A program made the position numbers and the translations under genes. A stretch of 20,887 nucleotides of DNA, taken from IMG/VR virus record IMGVR_UViG_3300050821_020551, positions 1 to 20,887 of that record; one strand, given 5' to 3'. Shown in pieces: positions 17,391 to 20,887 of the stretch. Position 1 is the first letter of the stretch. Each line of letters starts with the position of its first letter. The notes under the pieces were generated by a model. That model was not told where the DNA came from, ran no database searches, and was given only the letters and a program-made list of their open reading frames with translations. This DNA is from a virus.

Positions 17391-17674
17391 CTATAGTGGG
17401 GAACAATCTTTTCTATAATTAAACGAGACTTGAAAATAAGCAAATCCAGCAATTCATCTTCATCTTCAAAAGTCACATCTTCGATCAGATGACGAAGTTT
17501 TCTTGCTTGATCTTGCACTATTTTCATGTGACTTAATATCCACTCATTTTTACAACCTTCATCTTGAGTAAACAAGTCTTCATCCTTAAATGTATGTATA
17601 AATTCAAGAACAATAACCATTTCCGATAGAGTTAATGCTTCTATTGTTATTTCATCTTTTAATTGATTTAACAT
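17384..17674 (-). CDS. Unknown acidic protein, 96 residues
   Basis: The product is helical and very acidic (DVTFEDEDELLDLLIF, about 67-82), with no family recognised. It follows the HTH gene, sharing one base of its stop (TAATG), with the strong site GAGGAGAAATAATG. Coupling to a repressor-like gene suggests a regulatory partner or an immunity-related role (inference). Its stop lies beside the terminator hairpin. Confidence 0.65.
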   Translation of the reverse strand: MLNQLKDEITIEALTLSEMVIVLEFIHTFKDEDLFTQDEGCKNEWILSHMKIVQDQARKLRHLIEDVTFEDEDELLDLLIFKSRLIIEKIVPHYRK

Positions 17675-17904
17675 TATTTCTCCTCTTCATATATCTCTAA
17701 CCATTTTTTCATTTTAACTGCGGTAGTAAACTTTGGCTTTGTCTTTTCCCTAAGGAGAAGATCCAAATTCTGCCTTGCTAGCCCTATTTCCCTTGCTGCC
17801 CTATCTATGGGTATACCCCTTGCTATAATTACCTGAGCAACCCTAAATATAAGCTTATCCATATCAAGCCATGTTTCTGTAACTGATGGGCCTCTTGCTT
17901 TCAT
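17674..17904 (-). CDS. Cro/CI-like HTH regulator
   Basis: From the ATG at 17904 the 76-residue product carries an XRE-type helix-turn-helix: RVAQVIIARGIPIDRAAREI then GLARQNLDLLLREKTKP (about 21-57), ending in AVKMKKWLEIYEEE. This is the size of a Cro-type repressor without a cleavage domain. A GTG at 17928 is an alternative start but lies in the -35 of the divergent promoter and has no site. It stands divergent to the ERF operon over a region with paired GTTATGT-type heptamers, so it probably controls both directions and perhaps the other two promoters with the same motif. Confidence 0.7.
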   Translation of the reverse strand: MKARGPSVTETWLDMDKLIFRVAQVIIARGIPIDRAAREIGLARQNLDLLLREKTKPKFTTAVKMKKWLEIYEEEK

Positions 17905-17921
17905 CGTATCTACTCTTTCAA

Positions 17922-17950
17922 TTGACACTTTTGTTATGTAGTGTTATATT
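17922..17950 (+). promoter_or_regulatory. Promoter of the ERF operon
   Basis: A perfect TTGACA (17922-17927) lies 17 bp from TATATT (17945-17950). Transcription would start near 17957, giving a short leader before the ERF start at 17992. Confidence 0.7.
17933..17949 (+). promoter_or_regulatory. Operator-like heptamer pair, 10-bp spacing
   Basis: GTTATGT (17933) and GTTATAT (17943) start 10 bp apart, between the -35 and the -10 of the ERF promoter and just past the predicted start of the leftward repressor promoter. A protein bound here would block both. The same motif recurs at 10926-10952 and 14916-14932. Confidence 0.55.
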
Positions 17951-17991: not shown

Positions 17992-18558
17992 ATGGAAGAA
18001 TTAATAAAGGCGCTTGTAGCTGCTCAGTCAGAAATGGGGCATGCCATTAAGAGTGCATCAAATTCCCATTTTAAGAGTAGATATGCAACGCTTGATGATA
18101 TCATTGAAGCTGCTATCCCTACACTCACCAAGCATGGACTAGCTGTTTCACAGTACCCAGAATCCTTTGAAGGAAACACCTACTGCGTAACCAGATTATT
18201 GCATACCAGTGGCAATGAAATATCCACAAGAGTATTACTTCACATAAAAGATCCTTCAAATATGCAGGATTTTGGTAAAGCCATGACCTATACCAGAAGA
18301 TATACTTTTGCATCAATATGCTGCATAACCAGTGGCGAAGATGACAATGATGGTGAAGTTGAGCAAAAACCTGAAATGGCAAAGTCTGAATACATATCTC
18401 AAGCTCAAGCAAATTTTTTGAGAAGCCTCATGAAGGGAAATAAAGAACTTGAGGCCGCTGTATGTAAAGCTGGTGCATGTGAAAGGCTTGAAGAGCTCCA
18501 TTGGAAGAAAAAGCAGTCAGCACAAGCATATATCGAAACTAAAATGGCACAACAATGA
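17992..18558 (+). CDS. erf: ERF-family single-strand annealing protein
   Basis: The 188-residue product belongs to the ERF superfamily of recombinases that anneal complementary single strands, as in phage P22. It shows the N-terminal motif SHFKSRYATLDDIIEA (25-40), a central beta region (QYPESFEGNTYCVTRLLH), and the family signature GKAMTYTRRYTFASICCI with GEDDNDGE (95-122). The C-terminal part (about 130-188) is helical and variable. With RusA it forms a recombination set that may serve genome circularisation and repair. The site is AAAGGCAATAAGACATG. Confidence 0.9.
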   Translation: MEELIKALVAAQSEMGHAIKSASNSHFKSRYATLDDIIEAAIPTLTKHGLAVSQYPESFEGNTYCVTRLLHTSGNEISTRVLLHIKDPSNMQDFGKAMTYTRRYTFASICCITSGEDDNDGEVEQKPEMAKSEYISQAQANFLRSLMKGNKELEAAVCKAGACERLEELHWKKKQSAQAYIETKMAQQ

Positions 18559-18740
18559 AATTCTCATTAGATACTATTTTTGGCCTACTCTTAGTTGCTG
18601 CGGGCGTTCTCTTAACTATCATTTTAGCAATATGTTTTTATTGTGCCTTGTCAGAATTACTTGATGAGAGAGAGATGAGAAAGTTAAAAATAGAGCATAT
18701 GAAGAAAAATGGAATAGATTTAACTCATGGAGCATGCTAA
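18555..18740 (+). CDS. Small membrane protein, 61 residues
   Basis: The product has one long membrane segment (FGLLLVAAGVLLTIILAICF, about 9-28) followed by a charged helix (LLDEREMRKLKIEHMKK). It overlaps the erf stop by four bases (ATGA). The single span and cytoplasmic-type tail do not identify a family. Confidence 0.65.
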   Translation: MKFSLDTIFGLLLVAAGVLLTIILAICFYCALSELLDEREMRKLKIEHMKKNGIDLTHGAC

Positions 18741-19033
18741 TGCCAACAGACCTATATAATCAGTTTGAAACAGACTTTATTGACACATTCAATATCTATA
18801 AAGAAATGCATGAAAAACTCGATACCTATCGTGGTAAAGTGCTTGAAGAAGAAGATGTGGAAATAGTAAATAAATTATTATTTGATATTCAGGATGTTTT
18901 CTTTAATAAACTGTATCCAACATTCAATTTTGTAGTGCAACGATATCAGTTCTGTTGTAAGTCTTTGCAAGAGTATGAGATATTTATTGAAGAAATTAAA
19001 AAAGGTGGCGCTACCCCAACTGCTTCATCATAA
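18740..19033 (+). CDS. Unknown helical protein, 97 residues
   Basis: The ATG at 18740 shares one base with the previous stop (TAATG) after GGAGCATGC; a start six bases earlier is less likely. The product is acidic and helical (DLYNQFETDFIDTFNIYKEM) and ends KKGGATPTASS. No family is recognised. Confidence 0.65.
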   Translation: MPTDLYNQFETDFIDTFNIYKEMHEKLDTYRGKVLEEEDVEIVNKLLFDIQDVFFNKLYPTFNFVVQRYQFCCKSLQEYEIFIEEIKKGGATPTASS

Positions 19034-19044
19034 GTAGGTAAATA

Positions 19045-19359
19045 ATGATACAAACAACCAAGTACTTAAAGGTTAAACCATCTGATGAGTATGCATGGAA
19101 TAGTTATGGAAGTTATGTTAGAGAGTTTGATCTCACATACCCTGCTTCAAAGAAAAAAGATAACCGCAAAAATAAACATAAAATAAGATCATTTATTCAA
19201 AGGCGTGAACATAGAGATAGATATGTTGAAGCAGCAAAGATGAGAGATAGAATGCTACTTTCTGTTAAGGTTCCAAATTTAATACATAAACTTGCCTCAA
19301 TTAGAGATATGATGCCCAAAAATTCAGGAACCACCATAATCTTGAAACGCTATAAATAA
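19045..19359 (+). CDS. Early protein ending in a capsid N-arm-like segment
   Basis: The 104-residue product has a basic, probably helical first two thirds (KKKDNRKNKHKIRSFIQRRE). Its last 37 residues match the N-terminal arm of the major capsid protein encoded at 12-965: residues 68-103 against capsid residues 18-53 give 17 identities in 36 without a gap, including LLSVKxPxLIHKL, GTT and RY. It stops (TAA) just where the capsid would continue into DRLP. Codons in the shared block mostly differ, so the likeness is old and kept at protein level. The site is AGTAGGTAAATAATG. It could bind capsid or scaffold proteins, or be a relic; no family for the first part is recognised. Confidence 0.7.
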   Translation: MIQTTKYLKVKPSDEYAWNSYGSYVREFDLTYPASKKKDNRKNKHKIRSFIQRREHRDRYVEAAKMRDRMLLSVKVPNLIHKLASIRDMMPKNSGTTIILKRYK

Positions 19360-19369
19360 TGAGATATGC

Positions 19370-19687
19370 ATGATATTTAATATCTTTAAAAAGAAACCAA
19401 GGCTATATGAAAGTGGTGATCCATGTCCCTTTTGCCTAAATAATGAATCAGTAGGAATGAGGGCTTACCAAGATGGTAAAAAAGCCATGTTTTTTTGCTC
19501 AGATTGCAATGAAAAAATTGAGGACGTTAGGCCTTCCGAATGTCTCACTTGTGGAACAGATGAGCATACAAGAATAATTACCTCACCTAATAATCAATAT
19601 GTCTATCCATATTGTACACTTCATCCAGAAGAAGATGAAAAAGAAAAGATGAATGCTATAATGAATAATGAGATGTATGATAAATAA
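19370..19687 (+). CDS. Zinc-ribbon protein, 105 residues
   Basis: The product carries two Cys pairs typical of a zinc ribbon, CPFC (19-22) and CSDC (43-46), and then a second possible site CLTC (58-61), His66, Cys82 and His85. The rest is acidic at the C-terminus. Such small zinc-ribbon proteins of phages often bind nucleic acid or RNA polymerase, but nothing here shows which. The site is weak. It is the last gene of the ERF operon, before a terminator. Confidence 0.7.
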   Translation: MIFNIFKKKPRLYESGDPCPFCLNNESVGMRAYQDGKKAMFFCSDCNEKIEDVRPSECLTCGTDEHTRIITSPNNQYVYPYCTLHPEEDEKEKMNAIMNNEMYDK

Positions 19688-19731: not shown

Positions 19732-19769
19732 TCCCCCGATAACCATGAAAATTGGCTCGGGGGATTTTT
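19732..19769 (+). terminator. Rho-independent terminator of the ERF operon
   Basis: TCCCCCGA (19732-19739) pairs with TCGGGGGA (19757-19764), extended by CCA with TGG, and TTTTT follows on the plus strand. It lies between the convergent ERF operon and the fibre genes. Confidence 0.85.
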
Positions 19770-19785
19770 ATCAAAAGTATCATTT

Positions 19786-20499
19786 TTATTCAGATAATCC
19801 AAACAAAGTTATAACTCCAGACCCACTTTGTAAAAATGTAGAGCCGCCGGCAAAAAATATTTTTAATGCATTTATAGATGAAGTATTAACAGTTCCATGA
19901 TGATAAGCTCTTGCTATTCCACCAGCTCCTGCTGCTTGATTTTGTCCCACGCTTTCTCCACTAATCATCATATTTGATCCGCTAGACATTCCATATAGCC
20001 AAATAGTTGAAAAGAATGATGACATAGTAGTGAATGATATGAAAAATTCGCTTGTGGAAGTATTGTTGGCAAAATTATTGGCTATATCTCCCCCAGTAGT
20101 TCCTGAAGTATAACCAGATGTTAAATAAGAAGATCCGCCATTAGTTGAAACTTGTAAAGCTAATTGATCAGATGTTGCAGTACATTCAAGACCGGTGCAT
20201 AAAAGCAAATAAGTATTATATGCATTTGTTATTCCTGAAGTTATTGTAAATGAAGAAGCTCCATTCACAACAGAACCAGAACTAATTAATGTAAGATTTC
20301 CTACAATAGATTGAAATGTTGGTGGATTTCCAGCACCATTAGATACCAGAACTTGTCCTGAATTTCCGGCAGAAGTCACTCCAACATTACCAGTTCCGTT
20401 TCCATATAAAATGCCTTTAGATGATAAACTAGAATTACCAGTACCACCCAAAGCAACTTGTATGGGATCTAATGAGTCTATCGGATTATTTGTTGCCAT
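19786..20499 (-). CDS. Tail-fibre-like protein
   Basis: The 237-residue product is Gly/Ser/Thr/Asn-rich. Residues about 14-65 (QVALGGTGNSSLSSKGILYG, then GNVGVTSAGNSGQVLVSNG) match the repetitive shaft stretch seen in many phage fibres and host-specificity proteins. The rest (about 70-237) is probably a beta-sandwich receptor-binding head; it ends SGVITLFGLSE, the ITLYG-type last strand common to such domains. The start shares one base with the previous stop (TAATG). It likely takes part in host attachment. Confidence 0.7.
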   Translation of the reverse strand: MATNNPIDSLDPIQVALGGTGNSSLSSKGILYGNGTGNVGVTSAGNSGQVLVSNGAGNPPTFQSIVGNLTLISSGSVVNGASSFTITSGITNAYNTYLLLCTGLECTATSDQLALQVSTNGGSSYLTSGYTSGTTGGDIANNFANNTSTSEFFISFTTMSSFFSTIWLYGMSSGSNMMISGESVGQNQAAGAGGIARAYHHGTVNTSSINALKIFFAGGSTFLQSGSGVITLFGLSE

Positions 20500-20887
20500 T
20501 ATATTTTTACTCCATATATAGATATGGTTCCCGTAGATATATTACCTGAGCTCATGGCAAATTTAATAGCATTAATGTTTGCAACTGCTGTGTTATTTAT
20601 AAAGCCAGCAATTATTCCCATTGTTGCGGCACCACTGGTTGATCCATCAAAAGTGACATTACCAACAATATTTGGATCATCTCCGTTGAAAGTAGGATTA
20701 GCGTCCATCAAATAGAATGAACCGCTAAGTCCTTGTCCCGCAGTATTGGATAATGGACCTGATAAATAAAAGAAGCTTGGATTTGTTGAACTACCAGGAC
20801 CCTGATATACATTAGTATATGTTGTAGAGTTATATGCTGCATATGAACATCCATTACCTATACCAAATCCACTATTTAAGTAAGTTG
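20499..20887 (-). CDS. Fibre-like protein, partial at the window edge
   Basis: The minus-strand frame stays open from its stop at 20499 to the right edge, giving at least 128 residues of a protein whose start is outside the window; internal ATGs around 20708-20711 are not the true start. The sequence is Gly/Ser/Asn-rich and beta-rich and ends TGTISIYGVKI, the same kind of final strand as the next gene (ITLFG). It is therefore probably the end of another fibre or receptor-binding protein. Confidence 0.6.
   Translation of the reverse strand, partial: TYLNSGFGIGNGCSYAAYNSTTYTNVYQGPGSSTNPSFFYLSGPLSNTAGQGLSGSFYLMDANPTFNGDDPNIVGNVTFDGSTSGAATMGIIAGFINNTAVANINAIKFAMSSGNISTGTISIYGVKI

Follow-up and report, generated by a model that had tools for sequence, protein, structure and literature searches.

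Why would a tailed phage that encodes a major capsid protein also carry a second, much smaller gene whose product ends in a piece resembling that same protein? We addressed this question in a 20,887-nt stretch of DNA from an uncultivated tailed phage (IMG/VR virus record IMGVR_UViG_3300050821_020551), hereafter called the window, and in the records of related phages.

A capsid-like segment at the C terminus of a small protein

The small gene encodes 104 amino acids (plus strand, 19045–19359), and its start is preceded by AAGTAGG. Its product has two parts: an N-terminal part (residues 1–66, 19045–19242) with a net charge of about +9 and no family match, and a capsid-arm-like segment (residues 68–103, 19246–19353) recognized by BLASTP and by a capsid-only profile. 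The segment aligns without gaps to residues 18–53 of the window's capsid protein with 17 of 36 residues identical, including 11 of the 13 in the block LLSVKxPxLIHKL. We reproduced this match, which a preliminary description had reported together with the basic extra part and the ending of the small protein at the end of the capsid arm, both of which hold. An old rather than a fresh duplication had also been proposed and is supported, as nine of the 11 identical block residues use different codons in the two genes.

In a single BLASTP comparison with the window capsid, residues 62–103 of the small protein matched residues 12–53 (18/42 identical, E = 1e-9). A capsid-only profile, built from 68 distinct capsid arms of related phages with the small proteins left out, scored the 104-aa protein at 50.6 bits (E = 6.9e-12 at Z = 1e6), whereas the top score among 2,000 shuffles of the same protein was 9.8 bits; among the remaining open reading frames of the window, only the capsid itself scored. 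The profile score, the shuffles, and the reading frame comparison place the match far above chance, and the C-terminal segment is, by sequence, a true homologue of the capsid N-arm. It retains the pattern LLxVxxPxxIH...GxTLRMxRY of the N-arm and E-loop base, with R49 and M50 replaced by I and L. Pfam and PHROG yielded no capsid match for the 104-aa protein, and neither these databases nor PADLOC matched any small arm-carrying protein. A small-protein search gave no hit in phage records and one chance hit in plasmid records (E = 6).

Extent of the copied piece in the capsid model

The N-arm of the capsid is an inter-subunit contact that packs against neighbouring subunits. To place the copied piece, we used an AlphaFold2 model of the window's 317-aa major capsid protein (minus strand, 12–965), which is assigned to the N4-gp56 type based on PHROG 1357 (major head protein, E = 1e-19) and on the model; its score against PF25209, 24.4 bits, is under the cut-off of 27. 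The model was built from 67 relatives (pLDDT 78.5, pTM 0.73) and replaced a first one from 29 sequences (pLDDT 55). It aligned with the phage N4 capsid (9e99) over 293 residues (Z = 21.2, rmsd 4.4), beginning at model residue 13 and N4 residue 26, and the predicted structure matches the HK97 fold of N4 gp56.

In the model, residues 18–35 are extended, residues 36–40 and 47–53 form strands, and residues 54–76 lie at the expected place of the HK97 E-loop, with a returning strand at 77–83 and the spine helix at 102–132. Based on this layout, the copied piece (capsid residues 18–53, minus strand, 807–914, delimited by BLASTP and the model) comprises the second half of the N-arm and the rising first strand of the E-loop, stopping short of the tip. 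A similar arm occurs in phage DEV (PMC10925440). The likeness of the small protein to N4 gp56-type capsid proteins lies in its C-terminal 36 residues, which are homologous to the N-arm and E-loop base. With the BLASTP match spanning only capsid positions 12–53, it lacks the complete HK97 fold: missing are the first 17 residues and everything after Y53, with the E-loop tip, the spine helix, and the P and A domains. Unlike the N4 gp56-type protein, it is not a capsid protein.

An early-type operon

The arm gene is the fourth in a plus-strand set that opens with a gene for an ERF-type ssDNA-annealing protein (17992–18558; Pfam PF04404, E = 2e-22). Between the two lie genes for a 61-aa protein whose hydrophobic N terminus is, by eye, an apparent membrane segment (18555–18740) and for a 99-aa protein with homologues in six related phages (18734–19033), and the arm gene is followed by one for a 105-aa CxxC Zn-ribbon-like protein with weak matches only (19370–19687). 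Upstream of the ERF gene are a strong-looking, promoter-like TTGACA-17-TATATT with an extended TG (17922–17950, plus strand; 11/12 match), although such sites are not in excess across the whole region, and a divergent gene for an HTH regulator (minus strand, 17674–17928; PHROG 4268, E = 3e-7; PF21716). A hairpin, CCCCCGA...TCGGGGG followed by ATTTTT (19733–19769, plus strand), is by eye the apparent terminator of the operon; it was not listed by a terminator scan whose loop limit is 8. This layout of promoter, divergent regulator, and terminator suggests early expression, in agreement with the earlier assignment of the gene to an ERF-containing early operon. Separately, two adjacent minus-strand frames at 19786–20711 resemble a tail-associated repeat family that is present in several tandem copies in the related phage G003.

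Early production would suit a decoy. If the capsid arm were recognized by a host defense, an early protein bearing it might titrate or mislead the sensor before capsid is made. Capsid proteins are known triggers: CapRel-SJ46 responds to newly made major capsid protein and to a small phage protein that is unrelated to it (PMC11578894). The latter, Gp54-Bas11, offers a parallel as a small, non-essential phage protein with a binding partner in common with the capsid (PMC11578894), but it is not a capsid homologue, whereas the arm protein is homologous in sequence. However, this phage group has no known sensor, PADLOC gave no defense-family match at E ≤ 1 for any small protein of the three phages that carry such a gene (see below), and a soluble mimic might equally trigger the sensor. 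We consider a decoy role improbable.

Arm genes in other phages

The search for homologues in related phages, suggested in the preliminary description, yielded arm genes of the same kind in two more, in what look like independent versions on unrelated-looking small proteins. An IMG/VR scan found G001 (IMGVR 3300028800_000048, 37.7 kb), which encodes a 106-aa protein (L001:9809-10126) with a Cys-containing, unrelated-looking N-terminal part and the arm at its C terminus; the full capsid gene of G001 lies 11 kb away. Profile searching of the whole records of capsid relatives found G102 (IMGVR 3300049215_000478, 35.4 kb), with a 61-aa protein (L283:12597-12782, minus strand) in which a basic lead of 26 residues is followed by the arm; the capsid-only profile scored it at 26.2 bits (E = 3e-4 at Z = 1e6). 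These two carriers show that the segment is not unique to the window. In all three small proteins, the arm is C-terminal on an otherwise different protein, ends 1 to 3 residues past the equivalent of Y53, and lacks the capsid's first 17 residues. All three arms contain KVPN, compared to 3 of 84 distinct capsid arms, and the N-terminal parts are strongly basic in two of the three. Weak second hits in G078, G089, and G043 (E 0.005–0.01) were taken as chance matches: one frame lies on the opposite strand of a tail-type gene, one contains stops, and one is 45 residues long.

Carriers are rare, and the arm genes occupy different genome slots. In a further 65 or so records of at least 17 kb, most searched with both profiles and many of them fragments, the capsid arm is present without a small arm gene. 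IMG/VR scans for an arm closely followed by a stop codon returned just known capsids, chance matches, and G001; these scans are incomplete because the patterns require CAT-AAR at the H-K codons. An arm query against bacterial and archaeal genome contigs found no relative. Absence or decay of the segment in related phages had been named as counting against the preliminary reading: the gene is indeed absent from most relatives, but no decayed copy was found. Most likely, the arm genes are a rare, laterally spread accessory type whose products would dock at the site of the capsid arm.

In G001, the arm gene begins right at the stop of the preceding gene, and the next ATG falls within the arm gene's own last codons; the start of the G102 gene lies within the end of the gene before it. 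CxxC proteins adjoin all three arm genes; when these neighbors were compared, we saw no mutual similarity or common ancestry (best E 0.12). A Fic/DOC-like gene lies near the G001 arm gene (L001:11569-12060; PF02661, E = 8e-5, just under the cut-off). In two relatives, the terminase-portal slot holds an ankyrin-like-repeat protein with a hydrophobic leader (L162, G006 about 30663-31903; L164, G007 about 28163-29272), suggesting that this slot takes accessory genes.

The G102 arm gene itself sits between terminase and portal, and that of G001 a few kilobases upstream of terminase. These locations, together with retention of the core residues L, L, P, G, T, and Y, would fit a role in regulating or assisting assembly of the phage's own head, in which a free arm binds scaffold or coat and times or sizes assembly, or binds a partner common to both capsid lineages described below. 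However, the gene is missing from most of the near-full-length relatives that share this head module, so assembly does not require it, and we give this explanation little weight.

Constraint on the small arms

We asked whether the small arms have been kept as the capsid arm has. With the three arms pooled, capsid-invariant positions were kept in 32 of 48 cases, whereas variable positions equaled the consensus in 21 of 49 (p = 0.015); under a generous count, in which every residue that occurs in some capsid is accepted as kept, the difference is gone (35/49). This is mild evidence that the small arms may be under the same constraint as the capsid. Some capsid-invariant residues have disappeared from the small arms, A35 from all three.

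A weak constraint signal is what functionless relics would leave, that is, 5' remnants of displaced capsid genes recombined onto passing frames, and the rarity and patchiness of the genes, with a different neighborhood and N-terminal part each time, point the same way. Against this, the capsid's first 17 residues are missing and the end point is the same in every case, KVPN is common to all three, and each is an open frame closely packed among its neighbors, with overlaps or an 11-base gap. The missing residues, shared end, and tightly packed open frames disfavor simple debris, and we think relics quite unlikely.

Interrupted capsid genes and hosts of related phages

In relatives, capsid genes contain one to four insertions, about 200–235 nt or 350–1,440 nt long and located at many different codons (L018, L020, L021, L023, L033, L034, L040, L042, L099, L105, L108, L112, L121, L127, L133, L143, L203, L205, and others); the window capsid gene is without such insertions. 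The short inserts align with one another and share a consensus fold of 37 pairs, 29 of them with compensatory changes, in which a GACTA/AGTC pairing resembles P7 of group I introns. A DNA profile of the inserts gave 201 matches in 99 loci, some redundant, and the inserts matched no Rfam family even at E ≤ 1. An intron that is spliced from a phage capsid gene has been described (PMC3706429); the density of the inserts and the missing Rfam match look unusual. The portal of G003 (L158, G003:19978-22049) and the terminase of G021 (L174, G021:31598-32097) are each split over two frames, perhaps by introns or frameshifts.

We considered whether an arm gene could be the first exon of a split second capsid gene and dropped the idea: although two of the insertions in relatives fall near residue 48 (L203, L205), the small proteins reach Y53, their N-terminal parts are foreign, and a second capsid gene was not found in G000, G001, or G102.

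Six capsid relatives lie in bacterial or archaeal bins. Three are in Simkaniaceae, Parachlamydiaceae, and Parachlamydia contigs (L202, L204, L205), which hints at environmental chlamydiae as possible hosts for part of the phage group. The remaining three are in Saccharibacteria, Methanomicrobiales, and Methylococcaceae bins, and binning errors are possible.

The small arms and the two capsid lineages

The capsids split by their arms into two main lineages, an RTP/KTP type, which includes the window capsid, and a PVP type. Over 33 columns, the window's small arm scored 51.3 bits with the PVP-type profile versus 39.1 with its own type, and shared 20–21 of 33 residues with the best PVP-type arms versus 16 of 33 with its own capsid. 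Its MPKNSG fits the MPRNGG of the PVP lineage, whereas its own capsid has LKEKAG. G102, whose capsid is RTP-type (L269, 79% to L009), has a small arm that likewise scored higher with the PVP type (24.5 versus 16.6 bits), and that of G001, a PVP-type phage, had no clear preference (39.2 versus 40.3 bits). The arm tree rests on the same 33 columns and is undecided: a constraint that places the window's small arm within its own lineage survives the AU test (p = 0.31), and a joint clade of the small arms from the window and G001 is neither established nor firmly rejected (p = 0.057). The segment had been described as an arm of the phage's own capsid; in view of its higher scores against the other lineage, it is better described as an arm module that has spread laterally and appears to fit another capsid lineage better than its own.

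This lineage fit bears on whether the arm is a docking tag that would hold the variable N-terminal part on the procapsid of the same phage, with a basic or Cys-rich domain perhaps carried into the head or placed on its surface. Encapsulin cargo-loading peptides, C-terminal peptides that dock a protein to a shell of the HK97 fold, offer a parallel, and encapsulins share the capsid's fold. The arm is always C-terminal, the N-terminal parts differ, and two of the three are strongly basic, as such a tag would predict. Docking of the phage arm is putative, however, and the encapsulin peptides do not copy an arm of their shell. Moreover, the window and G102 arms fit another lineage better than that of the head to be tagged, the window gene is in the ERF operon and not among the head genes, and the G102 protein, with its 26-residue lead, is nearly without cargo. 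Since that protein is almost only arm, the arm looks like the working part and not a cargo tag, and we consider tagging unlikely.

A possible role in interference with head assembly

We tentatively propose that the small protein binds at the site of the capsid arm and disturbs the assembly of heads in related, co-infecting phages. Its C-terminal 35–40 residues are a diverged copy of the N-arm and first E-loop strand of an N4-gp56-type capsid, produced from an operon that is probably expressed early. Because the capsid arm packs against neighboring subunits, a free copy would be expected to dock in trans on capsid subunits or on the arm's assembly partner. The docked arm may then disturb head assembly, mainly that of relatives of the other lineage; that co-infecting relatives are the target is a guess based on the better fit of the arm to the other lineage. 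A more far-reaching and rather doubtful form of this proposal is a laterally moving family that uses a borrowed capsid N-arm, often from the other lineage, as a weapon to poison a rival's head assembly in co-infection.

The principle has a precedent in Ty1, where the Gag-derived p22 blocks particle assembly (PMC4599808). In both cases, the protein derives from the shell protein of the same kind of element and is encoded apart from it, and the trans-dominant action on assembly known for p22 (PMC4599808) is what we propose here. The two differ in that p22 is identical to half of the Gag of the same element and its inhibition has been demonstrated (PMC4599808), whereas the phage piece is diverged, fused to other sequence, and putative in its action.

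A non-exhaustive search of open-access full text turned up no described phage gene in which the N-arm of a major capsid protein, and no more of it, is attached to another small protein. This type of small protein is real, recurrent, and, as far as we found, undescribed, and its role is putative. If it binds capsid subunits, phages would possess a natural peptide directed at HK97-fold assembly, and with it a simple means of interfering with one another; the peptide would also serve as a ready probe of N-arm function.
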